From contig JAUXGM010000045.1 in the NCBI GenBank assembly GCA_030622125.1, positions 1 to 14,721 on the forward strand: 14,721 nt of DNA. Direction: 5' to 3'. Below are positions 1-14,721 of this stretch, one piece after another (position 1 is the stretch's first letter; the number at the start of each line of letters is the position of its first letter). The notes beneath the pieces were generated by a model. The model searched no databases. It was not told the origin of the DNA and saw only the letters and a program-made list of their open reading frames with translations. The position numbers and the translations under genes were made by a program. The stretch comes from a bacterium. GTDB taxonomy: Bacteria > AUK180.

Positions 1-21
1 TATTAAATTCAGAAAACAGGC

Positions 22-52
22 GGGACGTACCTCGGATGTTCAGGTGCGTCCC
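22..52. repeat. Imperfect inverted repeat (hairpin) of the GTGTCCC repeat family
   Basis: Arms gggacgtacct (22-32) and aggtgcgtccc (42-52) are complementary over 11 positions with a single T-G wobble, around a 9-base loop. The GGTGYGTCCC half-unit recurs at 64-73 and 234-243 and, inverted, at 14705-14714, so this hairpin belongs to a dispersed intergenic family. Its function is unknown. It looks like a REP-type palindrome, but no transposase lies in the window. Confidence 0.7.
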
Positions 53-80
53 AAGAAAGTTGAGGTGTGTCCCGGATTCT
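43..80 (+). repeat. Diverged copy of the dispersed GTGTCCC repeat
   Basis: This block has the same order of parts as the better copy at 227-262: ggtgcgtcccaaga, then a spacer, then gtgtcccggattct. The spacer here is longer (about 12 bases between the two conserved parts), so it is a diverged direct copy. It shares bases with the hairpin at 22-52. Confidence 0.65.
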
Positions 81-191
81 TCCTTAGATAACGATAGACC
101 ACCCGAGAACAGTATAGACAAGGCAATAAGGAAACAAGGGAATAAGGGAATAAGTAAAGAAGATTTAAGATTTGAAATTTGGAGTTTTCTG

Positions 192-225
192 TCACTATTC
201 ACTTTTCACTATTCATTTTTCACTT
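192..225 (+). repeat. Short tandem repeat, 14-base period
   Basis: Two full units, tcactattcacttt (192-205) and tcactattcatttt (206-219), differ at one position. A partial third unit (tcactt) ends at 225. Similar attcact words occur on the minus strand near 14583-14605, just after queH. It is noncoding simple sequence next to the dispersed repeat. Confidence 0.6.
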
Positions 226-226
226 G

Positions 227-262
227 TTTTTTTGGTGTGTCCCAAGATTGTGTCCCGGATTC
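227..262 (+). repeat. Dispersed GTGTCCC repeat, left copy of an inverted pair
   Basis: A run of seven T is followed by ggtgtgtcccaaga, one variable base, then tgtgtcccggattc. The reverse complement of 14686-14721 matches it at 35 of 36 bases; the only difference is t versus c at the 22nd base. The repeat therefore lies near both ends of the window in opposite orientation. It contains two GTGTCCC cores in direct orientation, 13 bases apart. It could be a small mobile or REP-like intergenic element. Confidence 0.85.
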
Positions 263-290
263 AATAGAATCGGCTACCAAGGAAATCCAG

Positions 291-329
291 TTGCCTGTCT
301 GCGTGCTGTCGCACAGCACAGGCAGGCAA
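291..329. repeat. Strong intergenic hairpin, GCCTG-rich
   Basis: Left arm 291-309 and right arm 313-329 pair over about 17 bases, with one G-T wobble, a 2-base bulge and a 3-base loop. The GC content stands out against the surrounding AT-rich spacer. No U-run follows, so it is not a typical intrinsic terminator, and the nearest + gene (rpsT) has its own promoter 90 bases further on. It is probably a repeated palindromic element. Confidence 0.65.
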
Positions 330-421
330 ACTCCGTAAACATCATTGTTGCAATATTTAATTCCGTCAAATCCGTGATTAAATAAATCTTATTTCGCAAA
401 AAACTAAATCAAAATAAAAAT

Positions 422-450
422 TTGACTTTTTATGTTTTTTTTGATAAAAT
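422..450 (+). promoter_or_regulatory. Sigma70-type promoter of rpsT
   Basis: TTGACT at 422-427, a 17-base spacer and TAAAAT at 445-450. The predicted start near 457 gives a 5' leader of about 24 bases, too short for a riboswitch or an autoregulatory leader. The leader contains the Shine-Dalgarno AGGAGA (468-473), 7 bases before the rpsT ATG. Confidence 0.85.
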
Positions 451-480
451 GGGGAATGAATATTTTTAGGAGAAATTGTT

Positions 481-762
481 ATGCCACAACATAAATCGGC
501 TATTAAAAGGATGAAGCAGAACCAAAAAAGAAGAGCAAGGAACAGTTATTATATTTCAACATTAAAAACCTATGAAAAGAAATTTTTAAAAGCGATTGAT
601 GATAAAAAAGATTATGATGAGTTGAAAAAACTATACAATAAACTTGTTTCTCTCTATGATAAAGTTGCTGATAAAGGAATTATACATAGAAATAAAGCGG
701 CGAGAAAAGTTTCAGCTTTCACAAAAAGAATCAATGGAATAAAACCGGCAGATTCTCAATAA
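481..762 (+). CDS. rpsT: Small ribosomal subunit protein bS20
   Basis: This 93-residue, very basic, mostly helical protein is a primary 16S rRNA-binding protein of the 30S subunit. The N-terminus MPQHKSAIKRMKQNQKRRARN is the family signature. The second hallmark, GIIHRNKAARKVSAFTKRI, lies at about residues 66-84. Length is slightly above the usual 85-90 because of a short C-terminal tail. The ATG is fixed by AGGAGA 7 bases upstream and by a clear promoter. The gene is monocistronic on the plus strand. Its last 32 bases overlap the 3' end of holA, read convergently from the other strand, so no terminator fits between them. Confidence 0.98.
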   Translation: MPQHKSAIKRMKQNQKRRARNSYYISTLKTYEKKFLKAIDDKKDYDELKKLYNKLVSLYDKVADKGIIHRNKAARKVSAFTKRINGIKPADSQ

Positions 763-1786
763 ATTCTTCAAAATAAAATTTTTTTAATGATTGAGTGGTA
801 ACTTCACCTTTTAATTTAAGTTCCAGGGTAAACAATAAACTCAATTGTTTTTTAAAATATTTTTGAGTTAATTTTCTTACAGATGTAACGATCTCCCTTT
901 TTTTATTAAATGGTGCCTGAAAAGAAGCTGCAATATCCTTTTCATTATTGGTTTTTTCCATTACCTTTTTTACGGACAAATTTCTTTTGTATGTCCACCA
1001 GAGTCGAGTCAATAGAGTCATATCCCAATTACTTGCAGATTCATTGATGATGCGGGTAAGATATTTTAATGCATTGTCCTTCCTGCCAAAAAGAGCGGCA
1101 TCGCAAAAATCAAAAAGTGAGATTATCTTGAAATCACCTACGCCTTCATTTATATCTGCCAATTCAATATAATCCTTATCGTTTGTATAAAGTATCAATT
1201 TATCAAGTTCTGATCTTATTGTAGCTAATGTTCCATCCGTTCCCTCAATAATGTAAGGTACTATATCGGGTGAAATTTTCTTTTTATTTGATCTCAGGTA
1301 GTTTAGTACCCATTGCGTCGTATCTCTTTCACTCAATTTATATGCAATATAGTAAGCAGCATACTTTTTTTCCAACAGTTTCTTGAATTCCGGCACCCAT
1401 TTTTTTTGAGGTGGTGTTTGGATCTTATTTGTAGAAAGGAGTATCACAACAATATCAACTGTTTTTGATACCCACCGTCCTGAATTTAACACCTTCAGTA
1501 TTCCTTCCTTTGATTTTGCGGAAAAGTCATCAAAATAATTAATTAAGATAACTCTTTTTGAGAAAAAAGATGCCTGACAGATATGGGTTTCAAGTGTTTT
1601 TTCATCCTCATAATTTTCAGGAAGAATCTCCTGATAACTAAAAGGACTGTTGTTGTTGCCGAGAACAACATTCTTTATTTTTTTTACACTTTCCTTTTTA
1701 ATGTAATATTCATCTCCATCAAGAATATAAAGTGGAAACATCGGGTCTACGATAATATCATCTGTTTTTCTTAATGTTTTTTTCAT
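731..1786 (-). CDS. holA: DNA polymerase III subunit delta
   Basis: Probable delta subunit of the clamp-loader complex, which opens the beta clamp at replication forks. At 351 residues it fits the family (about 330-350). The start resembles the family N-terminus (MFPLYILDGDEYYIKK, residues 16-31). A central helical part carries the typical TIRSELDKLILY (189-200), and the collar domain contains LELKLKGEV (321-329). As in other delta subunits, no Walker A motif is seen. The first ATG (1786) overlaps the lipM stop as ATGA; Met16 is an alternative start, and neither has a strong Shine-Dalgarno. It is the last gene of the minus-strand run and ends inside rpsT. Confidence 0.88.
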   Translation of the reverse strand: MKKTLRKTDDIIVDPMFPLYILDGDEYYIKKESVKKIKNVVLGNNNSPFSYQEILPENYEDEKTLETHICQASFFSKRVILINYFDDFSAKSKEGILKVLNSGRWVSKTVDIVVILLSTNKIQTPPQKKWVPEFKKLLEKKYAAYYIAYKLSERDTTQWVLNYLRSNKKKISPDIVPYIIEGTDGTLATIRSELDKLILYTNDKDYIELADINEGVGDFKIISLFDFCDAALFGRKDNALKYLTRIINESASNWDMTLLTRLWWTYKRNLSVKKVMEKTNNEKDIAASFQAPFNKKREIVTSVRKLTQKYFKKQLSLLFTLELKLKGEVTTQSLKKFYFEEFIENLPVLFH

Positions 1787-2544
1787 CGTTTAAATATCCA
1801 TTCCTTTGAACTGTATTTCTCATTTGCAAGTTTTTCAGCGAGTTTTTTTTCTTTATCCGATAGGGTATATTCGTTGGTTGTATATATCTTTGAAAGAGAA
1901 TTAATTACAGTATTCTCCACATCACTTACAGTAATTTCATTAGGTATGAGATCATTTATTCCCTTCACACTTTTTTTCAAGTGTGCAGCACTGATTTTAT
2001 AGATATCGCTCCAAAGATCGTAATCAATGGTAAAGATAATTGAACCATGCTGAAGAAACTTTTCATGATCCCTATACTGAGCACTGCCGATAACCTTATG
2101 TCCATTTAAAGTTATTTCATACAGGGAAGGAGCATCAAAACAATTGGGAGAATTTGATCTTTTTTCACTCTCGGAAACATTTATATCTATCCCGAGAACA
2201 TTAAACGCTTCTTTGAAAATTCCGGCAACCTTATAATATGATGTCAAAAGATCACTTTTTGCAAAGTAATGATCATACCCTCCGATCATGCTGTAAGTCA
2301 ATTCGTAATGATGGATCACCCCACGCCCTCCGGTCATTCGCCTAACGATAGAGATATCGTTTCTCTCTTTTAATTCCTTGAATGGCTCGGATCTCTGAAA
2401 ATACCCAAGAGAGAGAGTCGGTTTATCCCAAAGATAGAATCTAAAAAGCGGTGGAACTTCCCGATTATAGTTTTGAAATAACGCTTCATCAATGCCCATA
2501 TTTAAATAGGCATTATTACTCCTTACTTTCAGTATTCGTATCAT
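1783..2544 (-). CDS. lipM: Octanoyl-[acyl carrier protein]:protein octanoyltransferase, LipM type
   Basis: Cofactor transferase of the LplA/LipB/biotin-ligase fold, expected to move octanoate from ACP to lipoyl-dependent proteins such as GcvH as the first step of lipoate synthesis. Numbering from the ATG at 2544 (253 residues), [18 protein letters not shown] lies at about 68-85. [10 protein letters not shown] begins at Cys135, the position of the LipM nucleophile, and KVIGSAQYR with LQHGSI follows. The Cys in this context favours LipM over lipoate-protein ligase LplA, though family members are hard to separate by eye. A TTG six bases upstream is possible; no Shine-Dalgarno is seen. The start overlaps the chemoreceptor gene by 29 bases and the end overlaps holA by 4, suggesting translational coupling. 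Confidence 0.85.
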
Positions 2545-4234
2545 TTTCAACTTTTGTTATATGAAATTGGTCAACCTGCTTTTTTAAATTATTCGATATG
2601 TTGGAAAGTTCAATTGCTGCTGCCGAAAGTTCTTCCATTGAAGCTGCCTGTTCCTCCGTAGAAGATGATGCCTCCTCCGTAGATGCAGCACCTTCCTCCG
2701 AGATCGCTGCTATCTCAAGAATGGATTCATTTATCTTCTGTGTACTATCAACCTGTTCCCCTATCATCCCATTTATTTGATTAAGATTATCATTTGCTTT
2801 TGCAATGCCGTCTGCTATCTTTAAAAAAGCATTCTCTGTATTTGCAGAAAGATGGGATATTCCCTTTATAACCTCGGCTCCATTAGAAATTGTACTGGCA
2901 AGCGTTTCTATCTGTTTTTGAACACTTAATATTGTGATCTCTACCTTTTCGGATTCTTCAGAACTTTGTTCGGATAATTTTTTTACCTGCTCGGCAACAA
3001 CTGTAAAACCTTTTCCCGCTTCCCCGGCACGGGCTGCTTCTATTGCTGCATTGAGGGCGAGAAGATTTGTTTGGCTTGCAATATTTTTAATTGAATTTAC
3101 AAATTCTCCAACCTTGGTAGAAAGAATGCTTAATTCACTTATTAATTGTTCTATATTCTCAAAAAGTGTCGTTACTTCATCTAAATTGGTAAGTGAATTC
3201 TTAACCTCTTCTTTACTTCCGGAAGCAAGGGTTGAAAGTTCTTCAAAATTTACAAGGGTATTCTTGGAATTTTCCTTTATTGAAACTGAAAAATCAGCAA
3301 CCTTTTTAATAAAATTCTTCACATTCTCAACCTTTTCAGATTGATGCATCATACCATCGGAAAGTTCTTCTATCGTGGACGAGATCTCCTCTGTCGATGC
3401 CGACATTTCTTCTGCGGCAGAGGATAGATTCTCAGAATATTCAAGTATATTATTTGATATCTGAAATATCTTAGAGACCAGCCCTTCCAACATGCTCAAA
3501 AATTGGTTTATGTAATAACTCATTTCGCCAAGTTCATTTCTATCTTTATAATCTATCCGAAAGGAAAGATCTCCCTTACCTTCTACAAGTTCAAAAAGTG
3601 CTTTTTTTGTATTTCCCAATCCTGAATTCATCTTATTAATTACGAATATTCGCGTCAAAACTATAATACCCGCAAAGATAAGTAAAAATAGAATTGTAAT
3701 ATTGGCAATTAAGTTAATATTCTTTTTTATTACATTTCTGCTCAATATAACCTTAACATATCCGATTAGTTGACTCTCATCATTATAACCTGCATAAACA
3801 GGATCATAAAATAGAGATGTATCTTTTTTTGTTAAGATATTATTTTTGCCTTTCAAAATTGATCTTCTTAAATTCTCCGGAATTTGTTTTTCTTCCTTCT
3901 CATCTTTGCCCAGTTTGCCCAGCCCGATAATTAAACTACCTGTTTCATTATAGGTACCCGACCAGAGAACGCTCTTTACTCCTAAAAGAGGTTCTAATGA
4001 ACCTTTTAAAAGATTGGAGTCATCCGTTAAAATTCCAAGTTTAGTTGAAAAGGCAATGTTTTGACAAAGTGCTAATCCGACACTATTTATCTTTTCAATT
4101 GCATATTTTCTTGTCATAAAAAAGAAACATGCCATTACTACAAGTGAAATAAAGATAAAACTATACATCAACAATGATAGCTGAAAAGCAATACTTTTTT
4201 TAAATTTACCGGTTTTCACTTCTTTCTTTTTCAT
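2516..4234 (-). CDS. Methyl-accepting chemotaxis protein with periplasmic sensor
   Basis: Inner-membrane chemoreceptor of 572 residues. TM1 is at about 18-40, an extracytoplasmic sensor at 41-174 (single-Cache or CHASE8-like in layout, inferred), and TM2 at about 176-198. A HAMP domain follows (about 199-252), then a long signalling coiled coil. The conserved hairpin tip [20 protein letters not shown] spans 384-403. Two Glu/Ala/Ser-rich patches (about 271-292 and 515-540) look like adaptation methylation sites. The C-terminus (TESKE) lacks a CheR-tethering pentapeptide. The ATG follows a GAGG motif that overlaps the stop of the binding-protein gene 10 bases upstream. That placement suggests, but does not prove, that the receptor senses the same solute, directly or through the binding protein. 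Confidence 0.97.
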
Positions 4235-4244
4235 ATTATAAACC

Positions 4245-5519
4245 TCACTTATTTAATTCTGTTTTGATCCTATTTGCCGCTTTTTTTAATCCCTCTTCAG
4301 GCTCTATCATATCCAACATGATCATCTCAATTGCCTCCGATAAGATATTTCTTGAAGTATACCATCCGGAAGATCGGGGTTCAAAATAAGCATAATCAAG
4401 TTCCTTCATCGGGACAAGAATTGTAGGATCTTCTTCAATTGCCGCCTTCATAATTGTCGTTTCAAGGGCGGATCTTCTTACGGGCAGATAATTGGTTTTA
4501 ATCGCCCATTTTGCCGTTATTTCAGGACTCGTTAGCCAATGTAAAAATTCCCAGGCTGCTTCTTCTCTCTTCTTTGATGATTTTAATATAACAATATTTG
4601 TTCCACTTAATATAACACCTTTCTTTTTATAATACGGTACCTCTGTTATACCAAGGTTGAATGTGAGTTTATTTTTCAAAAAATATTTTGAAACACAAGA
4701 AGTCATGATCATACCGACATCTCCGGCAGCAAAATTATTTTGAAAATCAAAACCCTGTCTTTTAAAACCGTATTTTCTATCAAGCAAGGATTTCCACCAT
4801 TTTAGTGCATCAATACCTGGTTGTTCATAAAATTTGGGCTGCTTTTCAAGCCTATCGGTTATTTCACCACCAGACTGTAAAAGCAAGCATTCAAATGTCC
4901 AAACGCTTAAATTAAAGGCATATCCCCATTGATTGGGGATTCCATCCTGATCTTCATCCCTTGTTAATATTTTGCAAACAGTATCAAATTCACTTTCCGA
5001 TTCTATGGGACTCCATCTTTTAGGCGGCTCAACATCAAATTTTTTGAACATATCCTTATTGTAGTAAAGTACAGGTACGCTTTTGTTACAAGGAAGCGAC
5101 CAAAGCTTTCCTTGATAGGTATTATTTTTAATAAATGCAGGGAAAAAATCATTTTTCTCTTCCTCCGGTAACTTATCGAAATAATCCTGAAGTGGAACGA
5201 TTATATCATTATCGATGAGTTTTGATGTCCATGATTCATACGCTTGCGAGATATCCGGAAGATTCCGTGCCGGTATTCCTGCAAGAAGAGATTGGATCAA
5301 CGCCGAATAACTTCCTTTATTGATTGCCCTGATCTTATATTCCGGTTCTTTATGATTGTATTCATCAATTAAGCCATTTAAAACCTTAAGCATTGGTCCG
5401 CCCATTGAATGCCAAAAGACCAATTCTTTTCCTCTTGAATATTTTTTCGGATTTCTATTTCCGCATCCTAAAAGAAACAGCATTAAAAAAAATATGAGTA
5501 ATAATCTATACTTTTTCAT
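4245..5519 (-). CDS. ABC transporter solute-binding lipoprotein, family 1 (carbohydrate type)
   Basis: Extracytoplasmic solute receptor of 424 residues for the two permeases just upstream in the operon. It starts with a lipoprotein signal peptide ending in LLGC (Cys19), so it is lipid-anchored rather than free in a periplasm. FWHSMGG (35-41) recalls UgpB-like binding proteins. [20 protein letters not shown] (139-158) is the family-1 hinge region. [12 protein letters not shown] (188-199) is an EF-hand-like calcium loop common in sugar-binding proteins. The start is fixed by AAGGAGG 4 bases before the ATG. The ligand cannot be read from sequence; sugars, glycerol phosphates and nucleoside-like glycosides are all possible. 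Confidence 0.95.
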
Positions 5520-5528
5520 ATATCCTCC

Positions 5529-6938
5529 TTATCCCTTTAGACCTGTTGTAGCAAGACTTTCTATTATTCTTCTTTGAACGAAAAAATAGAGTACGATCAA
5601 GGGAAGTATAACTATCGTAGAGGCTGCCATTAAAAGATTCCAATCCGTTCCGAACGATTGTGAAAAATTAGAAAGTCCGACCTGTAATGTCTGCATTTTC
5701 GGATCATTGGTAATGATCAATACCCAGATAAATGAATTCCATTGAAAAATAAAAGAAAAAAGTGCGGTGGTAACAAGGATCGGCTTTGAAAGTGGAAGTG
5801 CAATGTGTATAAAACCCATCCATATATTTCCACCGTCTATTCTTATTGAATCAAAAAGATCATTGGGAATTGACTTAAAGAACTGCCTCAAAAGAAAAAT
5901 GTTGGTAACATTTGCAAGCCAGGGGAGAATAATGCCAAAATAGGTATTATAAAATCCCATCTTGCTTATGATAAGGTAATTAGGAATAAGAAGCATCTGG
6001 GATGGTATCATCATTGTTGCCAAAAATAGAGTAAATATCAGTTCTTTCCCTTTAAATATAAGCCTGGCAAACGCAAATGCCGCCATTGCGGCAAGTATCA
6101 TTTGCAATAATGTTGATATGGAAGATGTAAAAACACTGTTGAAAAGATAGTAATTAAAATATTTGCCTTGCACCCATGCTCTTTTAAAATTTTCAAAGAG
6201 GAATCGCCTTTTTGTTAATTTATTCAAACTCGTTAAAACAATTCTTGACTTCCATTTTCTACCGCTTTTAATGATCTTTTTAACGGGGATCACTTCTGTT
6301 TTAGAGAGTTTTAATATTTTTACTTCAACGGATTCTTTCGGGTTCCGATTTCTATTTGATGTAAGGAAAATGATCTCCGTTTCGGAAAATTTTAATATCT
6401 CAATTTCTTTCTTCTTAAATCCCGTATAAAATTTCCCATCTTCTTCAATAATGTCATCGGGGGAAAGTAGTTCAATCCCGCCTGTTTCTACAGATCTCAC
6501 CTTTTTATAGGGAACAAGCCCGTCTTTATAAATATAGAGATGCTTTTTCCCATCTTTAAACCCATGAATATTTTCTTCGTTTATATATCTAACACTATTA
6601 TCATTTAATAAACGGATTTTTTTATAGGGAATACACTCGGTATAGGTTTTATAAATTTTTACCTTTACCTTTTTCCCCGATTTTGTATAAAATGTCTCAC
6701 CTTTTTTTAGTAGTTCTTTATTATCCTTCAACTGTTTCCCCTGCGGATCAAAGAATTTCTTCTCCTTTTCAACAAAGTAATATTTTATCTTTGGCAATTG
6801 GAGGGGGTTCCCAAGAATTTCCGAGTCCGATTTTAATGCCGTATAAAGCATCCAGATGAATGGATAAAGAAAAATCAGTGCAAAAACAGATAAAATAACA
6901 TACAAGAAAAATTTAGAAAAATAGTCACCGATTTTCAT
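5529..6938 (-). CDS. ABC sugar transporter permease, MalG/UgpE type, with large inserted domain
   Basis: Inner-membrane permease of 469 residues; the family is usually about 270-300. TM1 (about 12-34) is followed by PLQLPK (45-50). The family sequence then resumes only at FENFKRAW (248-255) and continues through about five more TM segments. The ATPase-contacting EAA loop is DSIRIDGG...FIHIALPLSKP at about 363-386. About 200 Lys-rich residues (50-248) are thus inserted in the first extracytoplasmic loop. They contain repeated strands: YTECIPYKKIRLLN, DGLVPYKKVRSVE and KTEVIPVKKI. The start follows AGGTGG by 7 bases and overlaps the stop of the partner permease gene (ATGA). The inserted domain probably faces the binding protein encoded 9 bases downstream. 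Confidence 0.94.
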   Translation of the reverse strand: MKIGDYFSKFFLYVILSVFALIFLYPFIWMLYTALKSDSEILGNPLQLPKIKYYFVEKEKKFFDPQGKQLKDNKELLKKGETFYTKSGKKVKVKIYKTYTECIPYKKIRLLNDNSVRYINEENIHGFKDGKKHLYIYKDGLVPYKKVRSVETGGIELLSPDDIIEEDGKFYTGFKKKEIEILKFSETEIIFLTSNRNRNPKESVEVKILKLSKTEVIPVKKIIKSGRKWKSRIVLTSLNKLTKRRFLFENFKRAWVQGKYFNYYLFNSVFTSSISTLLQMILAAMAAFAFARLIFKGKELIFTLFLATMMIPSQMLLIPNYLIISKMGFYNTYFGIILPWLANVTNIFLLRQFFKSIPNDLFDSIRIDGGNIWMGFIHIALPLSKPILVTTALFSFIFQWNSFIWVLIITNDPKMQTLQVGLSNFSQSFGTDWNLLMAASTIVILPLIVLYFFVQRRIIESLATTGLKG

Positions 6939-7882
6939 TGATATACCACCTTTTTTTCAGCGATTTTTCTTTGTACTACTGTTATAATTAAAATAATAAG
7001 AAACATTATAAATGCCATTGATGCGGCGTAACCAAGTTCCATATCTCTAAATGCCTTTTTGTACATATAAAATGCGGTAACAAGAGTGGTTCCAGCGGGA
7101 GAACCGCCATTTTCATATCCGGTCATTATGTAGATCGGCCCAAAGACCTGAAAGGAAAAAATCACAGAGATCGTAATTAGGAAATATATTGCCGGCGATA
7201 ATAAAGGGATAGTTATATGAATGAACTGTTTTACTTTTGAAGCACCGTCAATCTTAGCAGCTTCATAGTAGGTAATCGGTATATTTTTTAATCCCGCAAG
7301 AAGAATGACGACCTGATAACCGCATACCTTCCATGATGTCATAAGAATAATTGAAAAAAGAGCCAATGACGGACCTCCGAAGAAGCCTTTCAAAAATTTC
7401 GCTTTCGGGTCAAACAATAATTGAAAGACACCTCTTGATTCTTCAAGCCATTTCAAACCTTGTCCTTTAGAAACAGATTGTATAATATAATTGAAGATAC
7501 CACTTGATGGATCATAAAAGACCTTCCATATCGCTGCAATAGCAACAAGCGATGTAATATACGGAAGGAAATAAGTAGTTCTGAAAAAATTCTGCCCCTT
7601 TATTTTTTCATTAAGAAATTGTGAGAGCATTAGGGAAAAAATAAGAGTTAACGGTACGGATATTGCGACATACCAAACCGTATTGCCAAGTGATTGCCAG
7701 AAACTTGCATCATGAAATACGCGTATATAATTTTTTAAACCGATAAAACCGAGATTCTTTAATTCATACCGTTCAAAACTCATTATCAAAGCGTAAAGCA
7801 TCGGAAATATCTTAAAGGTCAATAGTGCTAAAAGAGCAGGACCCAAGAATAATAAGACCCACTTAAAATTACTTTTTTTCAT
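6935..7882 (-). CDS. ABC sugar transporter permease, MalF/UgpA type
   Basis: First permease of the importer, 315 residues with about six TM segments. The EAA loop YYEAAKIDGASKVKQFIHITIPLLSP (about 205-230) is textbook and marks the contact with the ATPase. The length is normal for UgpA-like proteins; it lacks the large P2 loop of E. coli MalF. A moderately long extracytoplasmic loop (about 122-170) lies before the third core helix. The start overlaps the last 14 bases of ade, with AGGA 7 bases upstream inside ade. No ATP-binding subunit gene is near, so a shared MsmK/MalK-like ATPase encoded elsewhere is likely (inference). Confidence 0.95.
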   Translation of the reverse strand: MKKSNFKWVLLFLGPALLALLTFKIFPMLYALIMSFERYELKNLGFIGLKNYIRVFHDASFWQSLGNTVWYVAISVPLTLIFSLMLSQFLNEKIKGQNFFRTTYFLPYITSLVAIAAIWKVFYDPSSGIFNYIIQSVSKGQGLKWLEESRGVFQLLFDPKAKFLKGFFGGPSLALFSIILMTSWKVCGYQVVILLAGLKNIPITYYEAAKIDGASKVKQFIHITIPLLSPAIYFLITISVIFSFQVFGPIYIMTGYENGGSPAGTTLVTAFYMYKKAFRDMELGYAASMAFIMFLIILIITVVQRKIAEKKVVYQ

Positions 7883-9605
7883 TTTCCGGTCCTATAATAA
7901 GGGGAGTAAAATTAAAATTTTCCACATCAAACAACCCTTTGTCGGTGATTTTAAGTTTTGGAATAACGGGCAGTGCCATAAAACCGAGTTGCATAAAGGG
8001 ATCTTTAAGGGGACAGCCCATTTCTTTTGTAATTTTCAACAACTTCTGTAGCTCTCTATCGGTCTCTTCAATTGATATATTTGTCATTAAACCGGCAATG
8101 GGAAGTGGAAGATTCCCGATGATCTTGTTGTTCTTTGCAATTGAAAATCCGCCTTGCCTGCCTCTTATTCGTATTATCGCCCTTAGTATATCGGTAAAGT
8201 TCGTGCCAACGGCAATAATATTATGTGAATCGTGAGCAACGGATGAGGCAATTGCACCTTCTTTAAACCCAAAACCATGGATTAACCCTATGCCGATATT
8301 ATCACTCGCCCTATGACGTTCCACTACGGTTACTATCAAGTAATCCCTTTCAATGTCGGGAACAATTACCCCATTTTTGATCTTCGGACTATCTATGATC
8401 TCTTTTGTAATGATCTGATCGGGTATTATCTTTATTATCCTTGCCTTTGAATCCACAGCAGCATGAAGCATAAAATCACTTTCCGTCAACCATTTTATAT
8501 TTACGGTACCTCGTAATTGATAAGGAATGCTAATAGGAATTTTATAAATAAATTCATTATTATCAACAACTTTTTTACCATTTTTTATTACACTTTCAAT
8601 ATCAACTTTTTCCAGATCGTTCAATATAACAAGATCCGCCGTATATCCGGGAGAAATAGCGCCAAGCTCTCTCAATCCGAAATATCTTGCAGCCGTAAAT
8701 GAAGCTATCTTATATGCAATTATTGGCGAAATACCTTTTTCAATACTTCTCTTGATCATATAATCAATATGTCCTTCATTAATTAGTTCATGAGGGTGCC
8801 TATCATCTGTGCAGAACATAATTCTACCATGATTAAATTCATTGATCAATGGAATAAGAGCGTCAAGATTTTTTGTGGCAGTTCCTTCTCTTATCATTAT
8901 ATACATACCTTTTCCCATCTTTTCGGCAGCTTCTTTTAAGGTTGTTGCTTCATGATCCGAGTATATACCTGCTGCAATATATCCATTTAATTCTTTTCCG
9001 CATAATCCGGGTGCATGTCCGTCTATTATCTTGTCTTTTGCGAGACTGATTTTATCTAAAACAATGGGATCTTTCGCTAAAACTCCTGGAAAATTCATCA
9101 TCTCGGCAAGCCCCAAGACCCATTTTTCAGAAAAGAGGGGATGGATGTCAAATGCCCTTAAAGTGGAACCTGATGTTTCAAAGTTCGTGGCGGGAACACA
9201 GGACGGTGCCATCATAAAAACATTGATCGGGGCATATTTTGCAGAAAAAAGAATAAAACGTATTCCCTCAAGTCCCAAAACATTTGCGATTTCGTGGGGA
9301 TCTGCAATAACACTTGTTGTTCCATGCTGAACTACCGCCTTTGCATACTCATATACATTAACCAAAGAAGATTCTATATGAACATGTGAATCAATGAAAC
9401 CAGTGGTTATATATTTTCCCGAAGCGTCTATTTCTACATCTCCCGAATAACCCTTTCCAACACCGACAATTTTATCTTTGTAAATTGCAAGATCTGTCTC
9501 CTTATCAATTTTTCCTGTGAAAAAGTTTAATAAATTTCCATTTTTTATTATTAAGGTTGATTTAATATTACCTCTTGCTGCATCAATAATATCCGATAAA
9601 CTCAT
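7869..9605 (-). CDS. ade: Adenine deaminase
   Basis: Metal-dependent amidohydrolase converting adenine to hypoxanthine and ammonia in purine salvage; cytosolic. The 578 residues are typical of AdeC/Ade. Metal and catalytic landmarks are in order: GFIDSHVHIESS (His74, His76), HGTTSVIADPHEIANV (94-109), AEMM with Glu168 or nearby, IDGHAPGL (His197), YSDHEA (His218) and TDDRHPHEL (267-274). The C-terminal domain shows VERHRASDNIGIGLIHGFG and AHDSHNI, characteristic of this family rather than of other amidohydrolases. The start has a strong AAGGAG about 6 bases upstream and overlaps the deoB stop by 4 bases. With phosphopentomutase it suggests use of purine nucleosides or bases. Confidence 0.97.
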   Translation of the reverse strand: MSLSDIIDAARGNIKSTLIIKNGNLLNFFTGKIDKETDLAIYKDKIVGVGKGYSGDVEIDASGKYITTGFIDSHVHIESSLVNVYEYAKAVVQHGTTSVIADPHEIANVLGLEGIRFILFSAKYAPINVFMMAPSCVPATNFETSGSTLRAFDIHPLFSEKWVLGLAEMMNFPGVLAKDPIVLDKISLAKDKIIDGHAPGLCGKELNGYIAAGIYSDHEATTLKEAAEKMGKGMYIMIREGTATKNLDALIPLINEFNHGRIMFCTDDRHPHELINEGHIDYMIKRSIEKGISPIIAYKIASFTAARYFGLRELGAISPGYTADLVILNDLEKVDIESVIKNGKKVVDNNEFIYKIPISIPYQLRGTVNIKWLTESDFMLHAAVDSKARIIKIIPDQIITKEIIDSPKIKNGVIVPDIERDYLIVTVVERHRASDNIGIGLIHGFGFKEGAIASSVAHDSHNIIAVGTNFTDILRAIIRIRGRQGGFSIAKNNKIIGNLPLPIAGLMTNISIEETDRELQKLLKITKEMGCPLKDPFMQLGFMALPVIPKLKITDKGLFDVENFNFTPLIIGPENEKK

Positions 9606-11296
9606 ATATTGCTCCTTATTAAACTATTCAATTTTTCATTGATTCTTTTAAAACTAATTATTTGATACCCCATTTCCCTCAATTTTGAAAGAAATTCTCT
9701 TCTTTTTGAGATAATTTTATATGATAGAGTTTCATTTACCCATCGGTCGGGGTATGTAACAATTGGATAGTTTCCATTTTTTAGCTCATTGAATATCGTA
9801 CGGTACAATGGTTCTTCACTATTAAAATTGATTAACGACATAGCAATGCCGTCTTCCGTAAGCGGTATTACAATAGTATCGTAATGTTCTTTTTTGTTTG
9901 AAGGAATGGTACTGTAAAGGCACTCGCCGGTTTCAAAGGAACATGTTTGTTTTAACCGTTCTGAAATAAAAATATTTACAGTATTTCCGCTATTTTTTAA
10001 GCCATAAGTTATATTGTAGATATCCGTTCTATAATCACCCATTTCAAACAGAAAGAGATCAAAATTAAAGTTTGAGATATCTATCTTTAAATTATCGGCT
10101 TCCGGTAGCAATTCCGATAGAAAACTTTTGCCGTCAATCGTTCTATTTATCTTCAGCATATCGGCAACGGTTTGACCAATATCTGCAAAGCTATTCCTTA
10201 CACCAAGGTCTATTCCCCTTCGTATCTCCTGCCCGTAAATAATGATTGGAATATATTCTCTTGTGTGATCCGAACCGGGAGCAGACGGGTCATTCCCATG
10301 ATCGGCTGTCAAAATAAGGATATCTTCCCTTTCCATAAAACCGATAATTTCAGGAATATAATTATCAAATTCCTTTAAAGCATTAAAATAACCATCAATA
10401 TCTCTTCTATGTCCGTATTTTGTATCAAAATCCACAAGATTTGTAAATATGATTCCATGCTCAACATTATTCTCCGGAAGTTGTTTTCTAATTGCTTGAA
10501 TTGTTTTAAAAATACCGTCTTTATTTGATTTCGTATGAACAGCACTCGTTAAACCCTTGCCGGCAAAGAGATCTTCGATTTTTCCTATACCAAGAACGGA
10601 AAGACCTGCTATTTTTGCATTATCGAGTAGAGTATTTTCCGGAGGAATGGCAGAGTAATCCCGTCTATTTGAGGTTCGTTTAAAATTTCCGGTCGTATCC
10701 CCGATAAAAGGTCTGGCAATTACCCTTCCGACCAGATCCTTATTTTTCAATATATTCCTTGCGATCCGACACCACTTATATAATGTTTCAAGGGGTACAA
10801 TTTCCTCATGAGCTGCAAGTTGAAAAACAGAGTCCCCGGATGTATAAACAATTGGAAATCCCGTTTTGAGATGCTCCTCGCCAAGTTCATTTATTATTGT
10901 TGTCCCTGATGCGGGATAATTTCCAAGAATATCACAACCTATCATCCTTTTAAATTCATCTATGATCCTATCAGGGAAACCATCCGGATAAATTGGGAAC
11001 GGTTCCCTTTTTATGTACCCGGCGAGCTCCCAATGTCCGGAAGTTGAATCTTTTCCTGTTGCAAGTTCTTTTGCTTTCCCGTAGGAACCGAAAGTATATC
11101 TAAGATGATTCAGTCCAATATTATCAGGCATCAAGTTGCCGAAGCCAAGCATTTCCATATTGGGAAGTTGCCCGGGATACTTTTCTGAAATATGATGAAG
11201 AGTATTAACATTTGTATCACCATACATATATGAATCAGGACATTCTCCAACGCCGACACTGTCTAAAACGGTTACAATAACTCTTTTTATATCCAT
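9602..11296 (-). CDS. deoB: Phosphopentomutase with C-terminal flavoprotein-like extension
   Basis: Interconverts ribose-1-phosphate (or deoxyribose-1-phosphate) and the 5-phosphate, linking nucleoside breakdown to pentose metabolism. Starting at MDIKRVIVTVLDSVGVGE gives 564 residues. Residues 1-397 are a complete alkaline-phosphatase-superfamily DeoB (usual length about 390-405). By spacing, Asp12, Asp291, His296, Asp332, His333 and His344 match the two-metal site known from Bacillus cereus. The phospho-acceptor position is Ser84 (GKDSTSGHWE) instead of the usual Thr. Residues about 398-564 are extra; DTIVIPLTEDGIAMSLI (473-489) in an alpha/beta context resembles flavoprotein-family folds. 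An upstream ATG (11377) would add 27 residues not found in the family and is less likely. The end overlaps ade by 4 bases. Confidence 0.93.
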   Translation of the reverse strand: MDIKRVIVTVLDSVGVGECPDSYMYGDTNVNTLHHISEKYPGQLPNMEMLGFGNLMPDNIGLNHLRYTFGSYGKAKELATGKDSTSGHWELAGYIKREPFPIYPDGFPDRIIDEFKRMIGCDILGNYPASGTTIINELGEEHLKTGFPIVYTSGDSVFQLAAHEEIVPLETLYKWCRIARNILKNKDLVGRVIARPFIGDTTGNFKRTSNRRDYSAIPPENTLLDNAKIAGLSVLGIGKIEDLFAGKGLTSAVHTKSNKDGIFKTIQAIRKQLPENNVEHGIIFTNLVDFDTKYGHRRDIDGYFNALKEFDNYIPEIIGFMEREDILILTADHGNDPSAPGSDHTREYIPIIIYGQEIRRGIDLGVRNSFADIGQTVADMLKINRTIDGKSFLSELLPEADNLKIDISNFNFDLFLFEMGDYRTDIYNITYGLKNSGNTVNIFISERLKQTCSFETGECLYSTIPSNKKEHYDTIVIPLTEDGIAMSLINFNSEEPLYRTIFNELKNGNYPIVTYPDRWVNETLSYKIISKRREFLSKLREMGYQIISFKRINEKLNSLIRSNI

Positions 11297-11302
11297 AAAT
11301 AT

Positions 11303-11331
11303 ATTAAATAATAAAAATGACTTTTTTTCAA
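11303..11331 (-). promoter_or_regulatory. Possible internal promoter before deoB
   Basis: On the minus strand TTGAAA (11331-11326), a 17-base spacer and TTTAAT (11308-11303) lie in the 49-base gap between the FHA gene and deoB. Transcription would begin at or next to the deoB ATG (11296), which has no Shine-Dalgarno, giving a leaderless mRNA. The -10 box is weak, and AT-rich sequence makes chance matches easy. Confidence 0.4.
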
Positions 11332-11345
11332 GTTTTTTTGAAATA

Positions 11346-12911
11346 CTATTCTTTGCGGAATAATAATTCAACCTCATTGTTGCCTAAAATAATCTTATCT
11401 TTATCTGAAAGAACGGATTTGTTAATCTTTTGGATGTTTAAGAATGTTCCATTAACCGATGTATCTATAATAAAGTAGTTATTCCCGTCAAAAACCAGTT
11501 TAAAATGCCGGCGAGAAATAAGTTTATTTGAGGGGAAAAATTCATTTCGCCCGAAAACGATCTCATCACTTGTTAATAATATTTCTTTTCCCGTTAACGG
11601 ACCGCTTTTAACGATCATTTTATATATTTCCTTTGTTTTTTCGGTTTTATTTTGCCCTATAAGTTCATAAAATTCCTTTGCCATTTTCATCTTAGGTATA
11701 TCCATTGATGTTATTGATTTTGTAATGCTGAATTCCACTCTTTTGGCAAAAAATCTTTCTTTCGAACCGATCTTTTCCCCATAGATATTATTTCCTGAAA
11801 TAAAACTGATATCATCACGATTTTTAATCCCTTTGTGATAGAGGATATTTGACTTTTCTAATAAAATTGAAATTGTATTTTCTTGTTTGGGATCAACGAC
11901 TATTACCCAATTTATATTTTTATAGTTAGTAAGTATATCAAGATTATTGATAAATTTAGAAAGAAGATTCGGCATCTTAATAAAATCAATTATTATCACC
12001 ATTGATTTGTTATAATTGGATATGGAAAGGTTTAAAAGCTTTTTTAAAATAATAAAACTTTCAAGCTCTTTATAATAAATATCGAATTTATCAGAAATGT
12101 AAAAAGATGTTACATTGTGAAATTTTGCCAGATTTGCCATTAGGTCAGTAGATATTTCCAATCCTGAAAATAAGAAATCACGATGTTTTGTAAATCTTTT
12201 TTTTGCTTTCTCAATAAATTTATTGAATTCTTTTTCGGAAATATTTAATTTCCCAGACATCGTTCTAAAAGATTCAAGTATTCCAAAAAGATCATTGATA
12301 CTTTCAATTTTTATTTTCTTTTTTAAAATAGCACCAACTAAATATTTAATTAAATTAATATCTTTGTTTACAATAGCAGAGTTTGAAGTTTCATTTAAAA
12401 AATTTGCATAGAAGGTAAAATATTCTTGTGCAAGATCTTTACTTTTAAAAAAATTCAAAGAAAAGGGAGTATTGTAAACCGCTCTATGTCCCTGAAAACC
12501 TTCATACAGCAAGAAGAATACTAAATTATTTTTGTAATTGTTGAAATGTTCCATGTCGTTAAATGAAACAAGCTCTTCCCTAATTTTTGCTGAGTATTCA
12601 AGTGCTCGCAATTCAGGAAATTCCCCTTCCTTATAAGGAATTGTAAGAGCGATTTCATCACTGTTCTCAGGATCAAATGTCAAACCCAAAGAGGTGAGAT
12701 AACCGTTGACATCTATTGTATAAACATCATCCTCCTGTAGAAAAAAGTCCTCGGCAATAGTTTTAGCAAGAGCGTAACTATCCTGAGATTTGCTACAAAC
12801 TATTGAAATCAAAGAACCGTTTTTTTCAAGTATTGTTTGATGATCAGCAGACTTTGCTGTTGATTTTTCATTCTTATTATTGATTAGTTTTCCAAGATTC
12901 AAAATTCTCAT
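11346..12911 (-). CDS. FHA-domain protein with probable degenerate P-loop NTPase region
   Basis: Cytosolic protein of 521 residues, first gene of the long minus-strand run. The C-terminal FHA domain (about 431-519) is clear: GR (454-455), SRRH (466-469) and D-x2-S-x-NGT (483-489), the phosphothreonine-binding loops. The remaining 430 residues are not recognised with confidence. GSLISIVCSKSQDSYALAK (32-50) followed by VYTIDVNGYLTSL (63-75) resembles the start of HerA/VirB4-like ATPases without Walker A residues. KSMVIIIDF (302-310) and INWVIVVDP (333-341) resemble the Walker B and next strands. This is inference. No signal peptide or TM segment is visible, and no Ser/Thr kinase gene is nearby. 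The ATG has no Shine-Dalgarno and lies at the predicted transcription start. Confidence 0.85.
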   Translation of the reverse strand: MRILNLGKLINNKNEKSTAKSADHQTILEKNGSLISIVCSKSQDSYALAKTIAEDFFLQEDDVYTIDVNGYLTSLGLTFDPENSDEIALTIPYKEGEFPELRALEYSAKIREELVSFNDMEHFNNYKNNLVFFLLYEGFQGHRAVYNTPFSLNFFKSKDLAQEYFTFYANFLNETSNSAIVNKDINLIKYLVGAILKKKIKIESINDLFGILESFRTMSGKLNISEKEFNKFIEKAKKRFTKHRDFLFSGLEISTDLMANLAKFHNVTSFYISDKFDIYYKELESFIILKKLLNLSISNYNKSMVIIIDFIKMPNLLSKFINNLDILTNYKNINWVIVVDPKQENTISILLEKSNILYHKGIKNRDDISFISGNNIYGEKIGSKERFFAKRVEFSITKSITSMDIPKMKMAKEFYELIGQNKTEKTKEIYKMIVKSGPLTGKEILLTSDEIVFGRNEFFPSNKLISRRHFKLVFDGNNYFIIDTSVNGTFLNIQKINKSVLSDKDKIILGNNEVELLFRKE

Positions 12912-12916
12912 ATTTC

Positions 12917-12945
12917 ATTTTATAAAAAAAGTAAAAAAAAGTCAA
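12917..12945 (-). promoter_or_regulatory. Promoter of the minus-strand operon, leaderless
   Basis: On the minus strand TTGACT (12945-12940), a 17-base spacer and TAAAAT (12922-12917). Only five bases separate the -10 box from the ATG at 12911, so transcription should start at or within a base of the ATG; no ribosome-binding site is present. The -35 box lies 6 bases from that of the divergent promoter, with the two forming the inverted pair AGTCAA/TTGACA. Confidence 0.75.
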
Positions 12946-12951
12946 ATAAAC

Positions 12952-12980
12952 TTGACATAAAAAATTATTTTTGATATACT
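12952..12980 (+). promoter_or_regulatory. Promoter of the lipoprotein gene
   Basis: Near-consensus TTGACA (12952-12957), a 17-base spacer and TATACT (12975-12980). Transcription should start near 12987, just before the AGGAGG ribosome-binding site (12991-12996). It is back to back with the operon promoter on the other strand, so RNA polymerase or a regulator bound here could affect both. Confidence 0.9.
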
Positions 12981-13000
12981 GTAAAAAAATAGGAGGAACT

Positions 13001-13867
13001 ATGAGAAGATGTTTCTTTTTTATCGGTTTCACATTATTAGTAATATTAGGATTGTTTTTTAGCAGCTGCATAGAAAATAAGAATGAGTTAACGCCGGATA
13101 ATTCATCGCCGTTAATTAATAAATTCGATCTTTTCCCTATTCAGATAATTCGTTACAATACTACTACAATATTGGTAAAGTATAATGATTACGACGGAGA
13201 CAATGTTGAAATGGCTATTGTTCCTGATTATGAAAAGAATGACACGGCTATACCAACAGTATATAATTCTCCCGACGAATACATACCGGAGCCCGGTGAT
13301 CCTGTTTATGATGAGTATATAAAAGATCCAACACACCATAAAGCATACCACTGGTTTGCCTCATCCGCTAATGGAAGGTATTGGTTTAAAGCAACAGCGA
13401 CCGATGGGAATTTTACAACGGAGTCTGTATTCTCAATTATTGTTCTTTCACGACCACCTGATATTTATTGGGAATCCGAACCATTCAATTCTTGGACAAT
13501 TAACCCGACCGTTAACCAGCAATTTGAAATTAGTGTGACAGATGTAGATGAGCCGCCTACAACAACGGTTACAGCAAAATTATTATTGATTGAGGATTTT
13601 CCGGATACCTATCCTGATGGCCAAATTTGGTTTGATAAGGCAACCGGTAACGCAGATGCAATTACAATTGATGATTCATATACCGCAACAATAACAATAA
13701 ATGACCCGTCAAAAATATATTCTATTATAGGATATTACAATGCTAGTGCCGAAGATTCTGCTGCAACCCCAATTGATTATTATAATACCTATACACTTAA
13801 AATCCTTGTTACCGATGAATGTAATAATGAGAATACGATTTTAAAGCAAATAACAATTAGCAAATAA
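13001..13867 (+). CDS. Putative lipoprotein with Ig-like domains
   Basis: Hypothetical surface or periplasmic protein of 288 residues. I do not recognise a named family. The ATG at 13001 is chosen over an upstream TTG because AGGAGG lies 4 bases before it and the TTG would fall inside the -10 box. The N-terminus is a signal peptide ending FFSSC (Cys23), an acceptable though not ideal lipobox. The rest is beta-rich with two probable Ig/cadherin-like units (about 35-149 and 150-288), including acidic turns YNDYDGDN (61-68), TATDGNF (132-138) and VTDVDEPP (179-186) that could bind calcium. No enzymatic motif is seen. It appears monocistronic, and its role is unknown. Confidence 0.75.
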   Translation: MRRCFFFIGFTLLVILGLFFSSCIENKNELTPDNSSPLINKFDLFPIQIIRYNTTTILVKYNDYDGDNVEMAIVPDYEKNDTAIPTVYNSPDEYIPEPGDPVYDEYIKDPTHHKAYHWFASSANGRYWFKATATDGNFTTESVFSIIVLSRPPDIYWESEPFNSWTINPTVNQQFEISVTDVDEPPTTTVTAKLLLIEDFPDTYPDGQIWFDKATGNADAITIDDSYTATITINDPSKIYSIIGYYNASAEDSAATPIDYYNTYTLKILVTDECNNENTILKQITISK

Positions 13868-14046
13868 GAGTGGACAAATCTGGTACAGCAGATTTATAAT
13901 TGATACTGGAAGGTTTTTTATTAAAATTAGGTTCAGGACTGGAATAGATTGCTCCTATATTTTCTAATTTTAAAAATATTTACAGGGATAGATTAAAAAA
14001 GTAAAATTGGATAAATGAAGTTCCATATTGGTATTAAAAAAAAATA
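13868..14046. other. Intergenic spacer between the lipoprotein gene and queH
   Basis: AT-rich, no protein-coding gene of normal size. A weak hairpin AAATCT/AGATTT (13876-13895, 8-base loop) follows the lipoprotein stop, but the nearest T-run (13914-13919) is 18 bases further on, so it is at best a poor terminator. The rest carries the queH promoter and a 10-codon mini-ORF, listed separately. Confidence 0.6.
13979..14007 (+). promoter_or_regulatory. Promoter of queH
   Basis: TTTACA (13979-13984), a 17-base spacer and TAAAAT (14002-14007). The predicted start is about 14014, one base before the ATG of the mini-ORF at 14015 and 33 bases before queH. The same -10 sequence occurs in the rpsT and FHA promoters of this window. 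Confidence 0.75.
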
Positions 14047-14047
14047 A
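14015..14047 (+). CDS. Possible 10-codon upstream ORF of queH
   Basis: ATG at 14015 encodes MKFHIGIKKK and stops at TAA 14045-14047, which shares its last A with the queH ATG (TAATG). The ATG falls at the predicted transcription start, so it could be read leaderlessly and deliver ribosomes to queH, which has no Shine-Dalgarno. It ends in nine A, a potential slippage run. It could equally be chance in an AT-rich leader. Confidence 0.3.
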   Translation: MKFHIGIKKK

Positions 14048-14589
14048 TGAAGAATAAACCAAAACCGACCATTTTAATTCATATCTGTTGTGCACCGGAT
14101 GTCATTTTTTCTTTGCCATTATTGCGAAGAGAATACAAAGTTGTCGGCTATTTTTTCAATCCAAATATTTTTCCGAAAGAAGAATACATCAAACGGCTCA
14201 ATGAGGTAAAAAAACTAAGTCAATTACAAAAATGGCAGCTTATTAAGGGTAAATATAATCAAAAGAAATGGTTTTCTCTCATAAGGGGTTATGAAAATGA
14301 ACCCGAAGAGGGAAAAAGATGCGAGATATGTATCGGACATTCCCTTTTGGAAACAGCAAGAAAAGCAAAAGAACTTGGCTTTGATTGTTTTACAACAACC
14401 CTGACGAATTCACCTAAAAAAAGAATTGAAATGATAACAAAACTCGGATTTCAAATAGAAAAAAAGATCAATATTAAATATCTGGAAACAAACTTTAAGA
14501 AAAATAATGGCTATCTGAAAAGTGTACGAATGAGCAAAAAGCTAAATATTTATAGACAGAGCTATTGCGGATGTAAGTATAGTAAATAG
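14047..14589 (+). CDS. queH: Epoxyqueuosine reductase QueH
   Basis: Last enzyme of queuosine biosynthesis: it reduces epoxyqueuosine to queuosine in the anticodon of tRNAs decoding NAY codons. This is the DUF208-type enzyme unrelated to the cobalamin-dependent QueG. The 180 residues match the family. Landmarks are IHICCAPD (Cys14, Cys15, Asp18), RCEICIGHSLLETA (Cys92, Cys95), TTTLTNSPKK (116-125) and YRQSYCGCKYS (Cys174, Cys176); these Cys hold the iron-sulfur cluster. The ATG has no Shine-Dalgarno and directly follows a mini-ORF (TAATG). The gene has its own promoter and stands alone. Other queuosine genes are not in the window. Confidence 0.94.
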   Translation: MKNKPKPTILIHICCAPDVIFSLPLLRREYKVVGYFFNPNIFPKEEYIKRLNEVKKLSQLQKWQLIKGKYNQKKWFSLIRGYENEPEEGKRCEICIGHSLLETARKAKELGFDCFTTTLTNSPKKRIEMITKLGFQIEKKINIKYLETNFKKNNGYLKSVRMSKKLNIYRQSYCGCKYSK

Positions 14590-14631
14590 TGAATGGTAAA
14601 TCGTTAATAGTAAAAATGTGGAAACAAAGAA

Positions 14632-14662
14632 GATCTGTCATTCTGAGCACAGCGAAGAATCT
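14632..14662. repeat. Dispersed TTCTGAGC/GCGAAGAA palindromic repeat
   Basis: The stretch around ttctgagcacagcgaagaa (14641-14659) forms an imperfect hairpin: TTCT pairs with AGAA and GC with GC, around a 3-base centre. On the minus strand it reads ttcttcgctgtgctcagaa, a form I recognise as a very widespread intergenic repeat in many bacterial phyla. It lies between queH and the terminal GTGTCCC repeat. Its function is unknown. Confidence 0.6.
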
Positions 14663-14685
14663 ATCTTTGACCTTTGAAATAATAA

Positions 14686-14721
14686 GAATCCGGGACACAG
14701 TCTTGGGACACACCAAAAAAA
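14686..14721 (-). repeat. Dispersed GTGTCCC repeat, right copy of an inverted pair
   Basis: Reverse complement of the repeat at 227-262 with one mismatch in 36 bases, including the run of seven T at its outer end. The window stops at its last base, so the repeat may continue. If the window is a contig, assembly may have broken here because of repeat copies elsewhere. Confidence 0.85.

Follow-up and report, generated by a model that had tools for sequence, protein, structure and literature searches.

Phosphopentomutase (DeoB) converts deoxyribose-1-phosphate to deoxyribose-5-phosphate and is an enzyme of DNA-sugar recycling. On contig JAUXGM010000045.1 of the bacterial assembly GCA_030622125.1 (lineage AUK180), whose positions 1 to 14,721 were analysed and are called the window here, the deoB frame runs well past the end of the catalytic core. 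What is this C-terminal tail, and why is it attached to a salvage enzyme? The evidence below points to a predicted HFCD flavoprotein-like domain related to the flavoproteins of bacterial microcompartment (BMC) loci, microcompartments being protein-shelled organelles. It slightly favours a reading in which DeoB acquired a BMC flavoprotein by fusion and in which the domain today serves mainly for assembly, tying DeoB to the aldolase DeoC and to a sugar-phosphate-utilizing (SPU) microcompartment.

The deoB gene was a minus-strand frame (11296-9602, 564 amino acids) uninterrupted by stops, in which the catalytic core (residues 1-397; 10106..11296, minus strand) was delimited by NCBIfam models, PDB alignment and motifs. 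PRK05362 (E = 1e-150, 501.6 bits, cut-off 256) and TIGR01696 (E = 3e-137, 457.6 bits, cut-off 341.2) ended at residues 395 and 391 respectively, and alignments with phosphopentomutases of the PDB covered residues 3-396 only, leaving ~167 residues in excess. The core motifs KDS, NLVDFD, ADHGNDP and DHTRE were retained, and by the equivalog cut-offs and the metal-site motifs the protein is a phosphopentomutase. It shares the whole catalytic core and these motifs with the solved enzymes of the alkaline phosphatase superfamily (B. cereus structures 3m8w etc.) and differs from them by an additional C-terminal domain of about 155-167 residues. The preliminary description of this DNA had noted an extra domain of ~167 residues after a core complete at ~397, as found here. 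It had also suggested a new salvage enzyme, for which no support was obtained: the metal-ligand motifs are kept and nothing suggests a new reaction. A Thr-to-Ser change at the nucleophile position was considered as a peculiarity of the class and dropped, as it occurs beyond this class.

The tail comprised residues ~397-564 (9605-10108, minus strand; the limits first proposed, 9602-10105, were right to within one codon). It consists of a linker (residues ~397-408; 10073..10108, minus strand) that starts where the DeoB models end and reaches to the tail model's first strand, followed by the putative HFCD-flavoprotein-like domain (residues ~409-564; 9605..10072, minus strand), assigned from AlphaFold2, VIA-align and hhalign; the folded part of the AlphaFold2 model began near residue 409-411. 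The tail is real: it was found in one frame with deoB in three other genera of the same family (592, 594 and 586 codons; 51-52, 44 and 41% identity to the tail of the window), the same three tailed records being recovered from GTDB contigs, and it was present in all four family genomes with a detectable deoB. A divergent DeoB tail was found in genome G006, which belongs to another family of the phylum and whose contig begins inside deoB. Altogether the tail was seen in five of the seven phylum genomes examined, and the remaining two gave no deoB match. A weak G006 match on contig C149, with three in-frame stops, turned out to lie in an unrelated gene, C298 being the contig that carries the genuine tail. 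The architecture thus recurs among DeoB homologues, in four family genomes and G006; such recurrence had been named beforehand as a sign in favour of the idea. The opposite cases raised beforehand do not apply: a tail of no known fold and unique to this sequence is at odds with the HFCD fold and the five genomes, and an origin by frameshift or read-through into a neighbouring gene was rejected because a single frame is common to four genera. No tail was found outside the phylum among 386 genomes sampled across the domain (one genome per family for most of it), and eight DeoBs from outside the family ended 65-70 residues past the DHG motif, without a tail.

AlphaFold2 gave a poor model of full-length DeoB from four sequences (pLDDT 46.7), which was discarded. 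For the tail alone, with a shallow alignment of four sequences, alternating strands and helices were predicted (pLDDT 81.3, pTM 0.81). The best Foldseek matches of this model were UbiX-like flavin mononucleotide (FMN) proteins (E 4e-4), and ranks 1-37 in VIA-align were all HFCD proteins (Z 12.6-9.7; next fold, Z 8.9), headed by DmrB (Z 12.6 over 149 residues) and including MrsD, SpaF, CoaBC, DpaB, EpiD and UbiX; response-regulator and B12-domain rows (Z 8-9) were set aside as general Rossmann-like similarity. On this model, the tail is predicted to have the Rossmann-like HFCD flavoprotein fold (EpiD/CoaC/UbiX/DmrB class). Pfam, NCBIfam and PDB sequences yielded no significant match to the tail by itself (YaaA and DUF3698 matches, E 0.05-0.08, were discarded as noise). 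PF02441 did not match the tail at E<=10, and its single match in the window's genome was a CoaBC-sized protein. Of the PF02441-like flavoprotein fold suggested in the preliminary description, the fold stands (VIA-align, Foldseek and the BMC-flavoprotein profiles), but neither the Pfam match nor the canonical FMN motifs were found. The likeness to the HFCD flavoproteins (CoaBC/CoaC, EpiD/MrsD, UbiX, DmrB, DpaB) lies in the fold (Z up to 12.6 over ~149 residues), whereas identity is ~10%, the canonical FMN motifs are not kept and nothing points to a role as a free-standing decarboxylase or prenyltransferase.

Profile-profile comparison (hhalign) with BMC flavoproteins (eight proteins from eight genomes) gave E = 4e-4 for the family tails and 7.5e-6 for the G006 tail; when the set was enlarged with the DeoC proteins that carry an HFCD domain (HFCD-DeoC, below), the values were 1.5e-6 for the family tails alone and 1e-10 for all five tails. 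The best shuffled-column decoy reached 0.05, excluding one that scored 132 and was on inspection a 3-column numerical artefact, and the best of 138 unrelated proteins reached 0.004; matches of the flavoprotein profile to CoaBC in the negative control are true HFCD homology. Against a CoaBC-type profile of one sequence (L027), the tails gave only 0.17. Outside the phylum, the 386 genomes gave as best match to the tail profile a BMC-locus flavoprotein (G322), albeit at a weak E = 0.0015. These profile similarities, well above those of the decoys, suggest that the BMC-locus flavoproteins are the closest relatives of the tail, and the fold identification together with this kinship is regarded as very probable.

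The stand-alone BMC-locus flavoproteins (TIGR02536 “eut_hyp”-like/PF02441-like) resemble the tail in their HFCD-type domain, as judged by profile, and resemble G006 also in a short C-terminal module (ILTISDVKELI...RLTPEARDYLKEKGYKL; “TPxARD”, EutQ-N-like), which was likewise found in EutQ-like sequences and several RpiB proteins. They differ in that the domain is here fused to DeoB, falls below the TIGR02536 and PF02441 cut-offs and, in the window's family, is without the module at the C-terminus and without the encapsulation-like helix at the N-terminus. TIGR02536 left the window tail unmatched and matched the G006 tail weakly (0.038), short of the cut-off. A stand-alone BMC flavoprotein was not found in the window's genome.

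In an alignment with two CoaBC sequences, the canonical FMN motifs (the G-S/G-I-A-A-Y-K loop, P-x-S-x-N-T and P-A-M-N) were missing from the DeoB tails or changed there, and were retained only in part in the BMC flavoproteins. The tail segment DTIVIPLTEDGIAMSLI, to which the preliminary description had drawn attention, aligned with the P-x-S-x-N-T flavin-binding segment of CoaBC, a segment entirely lost in the DeoC extensions of this family. Two cysteines (C452, C459) of a C-[ST]-F-[ED]-T-G-[ED]-C segment (9920..9943, minus strand) were invariant in the four family members; they lie in a low-confidence loop of the tail model (pLDDT < 50 around model residues 59-62 and 67-70), and this C-x6-C pair was not found in the divergent G006 tail. 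With the FMN motifs eroded here but partly kept in BMC flavoproteins, with PF02441 unmatched and with the family cysteines not conserved in G006, it is fairly unlikely that the tail is a working flavin domain, which would bind FMN or a related ligand and act as a redox sensor or electron carrier (e.g. with a PduS-like protein), regulating DeoB or recycling cofactors. What speaks for such a role is the fold, which is that of FMN proteins, the top structural match DmrB, which has been described as a redox-transfer protein cage, the invariance of the two cysteines within the family, and the BMC locus of this genome, which encodes a PduS/RnfC-like protein with Nuo51 FMN-binding and 4Fe-4S domains. 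BMC loci often encode flavin-linked domains, PF02441 among them (PMC4207490).

The tail evolved about twice as fast as the DeoB core. It nevertheless appears to be under purifying selection, because in the family comparison silent-site divergence was saturated while dN was 0.47-0.74. Its faster evolution and the loss of motifs and module in the window's family might be expected of a decaying, non-functional relic of an accidental gene fusion, but the retention of a single open frame in four genera, the conservation of amino acids (some positions invariant) against saturated silent sites, and the confidently predicted fold make this very improbable.

DeoC, the deoxyribose-phosphate aldolase, catalyses the pathway step after DeoB. 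In the window's genome, DeoC (L042:1453-2739, minus strand; G000:C143; 428 amino acids, encoded between rny and eno) had ~205 extra residues at its start, and this N-terminal extension was present in 5/5 family genomes and in G005. The extension gave 8e-10 against the enlarged flavoprotein set and 5e-6 against the BMC flavoproteins alone, profile values that place it in the HFCD/BMC-flavoprotein group as a probable member. Beyond the phylum, HFCD-DeoC was also found in four families, and the genomes concerned (G074, G138, G215 and G024) were without exception BMC-positive. In G024 the stretch that encodes it also contains a BMC-H gene, AldDH and a nucleoside-transporter-like gene, and in G215 an ordinary deoB followed directly. 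The HFCD-DeoC fusions of BMC-bearing genomes, that of the window's genome included, thus parallel the tailed DeoB: the enzyme of the following pathway step has a related HFCD-like domain, but the aldolase carries it at the N-terminus, and linker and motifs differ from those of the DeoB tail. Separately, DeoC proteins of BMC-bearing and other genomes (L085, L086, L089, L090, L094, L123, L124, L136) showed an N-terminal extension containing an amphipathic helix and, in many cases, a short “GAxRxG”-like segment just before the core, like the “AGAxRIGAS” at the C-terminus of the aldolase.

The BMC locus of the window's genome (L028) encoded two BMC-P, RpiB bearing the EutQ-like module at its C-terminus, BMC-T, the PduS/RnfC-like protein, AldDH, BMC-H and PduL; with shell, AldDH, PduL and RpiB, it is of the SPU type. 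All seven phylum genomes were BMC-positive. Usual BMC-T shell proteins have two BMC domains. A protein of ~288 amino acids with three tandem BMC (PF00936) domains was observed in G004 (L046:6139-7005, plus strand; G004:C15), where gmk- and coaBC-like genes come next, and in G001:C9, G002:C348, G003:C13 and G138:C2; no mention of “three BMC domains” was found in the literature searched. The RpiB proteins of SPU-type loci (L028:8918-9532, minus strand; L051, L052, L070, L075, L076) carried an EutQ-N-like “IT..DV...TPLARD” module at one end, N-terminal in some and C-terminal in others; it was in tandem in L073 and terminal on a PduL-like protein in L059. SPU microcompartments have been linked to DNA-sugar catabolism through DeoC and RpiB (PMC4207490; PMC8217296). 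They are among the most widespread types, present in 26 phyla according to the 2021 catalogue (PMC8217296). The window's genome resembles the systems described there (PMC4207490, PMC8217296) in encoding shell proteins, AldDH, PduL, RpiB and a DeoC aldolase, whereas its deoC and deoB, both with HFCD domains, are located away from the BMC locus. In G018, ~2.4 kb separates a tailless deoB from a gene for BMC-H and one for a stand-alone BMC flavoprotein.

In the reading that is slightly favoured, DeoB of this small phylum would have gained a BMC flavoprotein (HFCD domain plus module) at its C-terminus by fusion, and the TPxARD module would subsequently have been lost in the window's family; another HFCD domain stands on DeoC. 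The domain on DeoB would have lost its catalytic and flavin functions and would work mainly as an association module, a role suggested because a related domain is present on DeoC, because it occurs alone in BMC loci of other phyla and because the FMN motifs of DeoB are eroded. The HFCD domains of DeoB and DeoC would co-assemble, or bind a common core or shell partner; DeoB would be located at the compartment, deoxyribose-5-phosphate would be made at the site of the SPU enzymes, and acetaldehyde would be released into the compartment.

Several observations weigh against this reading. The deoB operon is not beside the BMC locus (contigs C88 for deoB, C82 for BMC and C143 for DeoC), the DeoC-type aldolase is not encoded in the SPU locus (it is on another contig), the TPxARD module present in G006 is absent from the family tails, and a recognisable encapsulation peptide was not found in the tail. 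The loss of motifs, taken alone, may also be compatible with flavin binding by the tail. A specific DeoB-DeoC contact is a guess, because the family DeoB tails and the family DeoC extensions matched only moderately in hhalign (E = 2.9e-4). The position of the operon outside the BMC locus and the missing module would equally suit a tail unconnected with microcompartments, an appendage for allostery or stability of DeoB that looks like BMC flavoproteins only through common membership of the HFCD superfamily, and so would the fact that core and tail form one translated chain in every member. Such an appendage is nonetheless distinctly unlikely, given that the tail profile is nearer to the BMC flavoproteins (1e-10) than to the CoaBC-type profile tried (0.17), that the genomes of the phylum are all BMC-positive and that the next pathway enzyme has a related domain in BMC-bearing genomes.

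The genes next to deoB form an operon on the same strand. The start of ade (7869..9605, minus strand), encoding an adenine deaminase (Pfam Amidohydro_1 and Adenine_deam_C), overlaps the deoB stop (ATGA), and is followed by genes for a MalF-like ABC permease (6935..7882, minus strand; Pfam BPD_transp_1), a MalG-like ABC permease (5529..6938, minus strand; assigned from the frame and conserved gene order) and an ABC solute-binding lipoprotein (4245..5519, minus strand; Pfam SBP_bac_8/SBP_bac_1). The order deoB-ade-two ABC permeases-solute-binding protein was conserved in relatives, ade coming after the tailed deoB in each of the three other genera, and a deoB-ade overlap of 1-4 bases with the same order was seen in L002, L003, L004 and L018. 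The coupling to adenine deaminase that had been proposed from the window is a conserved operon, though the more telling partners are DeoC, with its related domain, and the SPU microcompartment. Just upstream of deoB, on the same strand, a frame at 11346-12911 (minus strand) has a C-terminus that is FHA-domain-like by eye. Elsewhere in the window, a frame at 14047-14589 (plus strand) resembles, by eye only, QueH/DUF208 epoxyqueuosine reductase, with CC and CxxC motifs. The frame at 2934-3344, like other plus-strand frames, lies across long genes of the minus strand and has the look of a non-genic antisense shadow.

The DeoB-HFCD protein is a novel domain architecture made of known parts. No DeoB fusion appears in the SPU/BMC catalogue papers (“phosphopentomutase” does not occur in that of 2014, PMC4207490, nor “flavoprotein” in that of 2021, PMC8217296), and the literature search found no phosphopentomutase-BMC fusion pairing, a provisional result from a search that reached little of the subscription literature. 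It is proposed, tentatively, that the HFCD domain of BMC flavoproteins may serve nucleoside-sugar catabolism generally as an “address and assembly” module. The copies on DeoB and DeoC would co-assemble and extend the SPU pathway upstream to deoxyribose-1-phosphate, by a form of recruitment unlike that of short encapsulation peptides. How the sugar-phosphate enzymes of SPU microcompartments are gathered, and where deoxyribose-5-phosphate is produced, are unsettled questions on which the shared domain may bear. Common to DeoB, DeoC and the stand-alone BMC flavoproteins, it would be a concrete module linking a cytosolic salvage enzyme to an organelle, and may offer a non-redox role for the unexplained flavoproteins of BMC loci.

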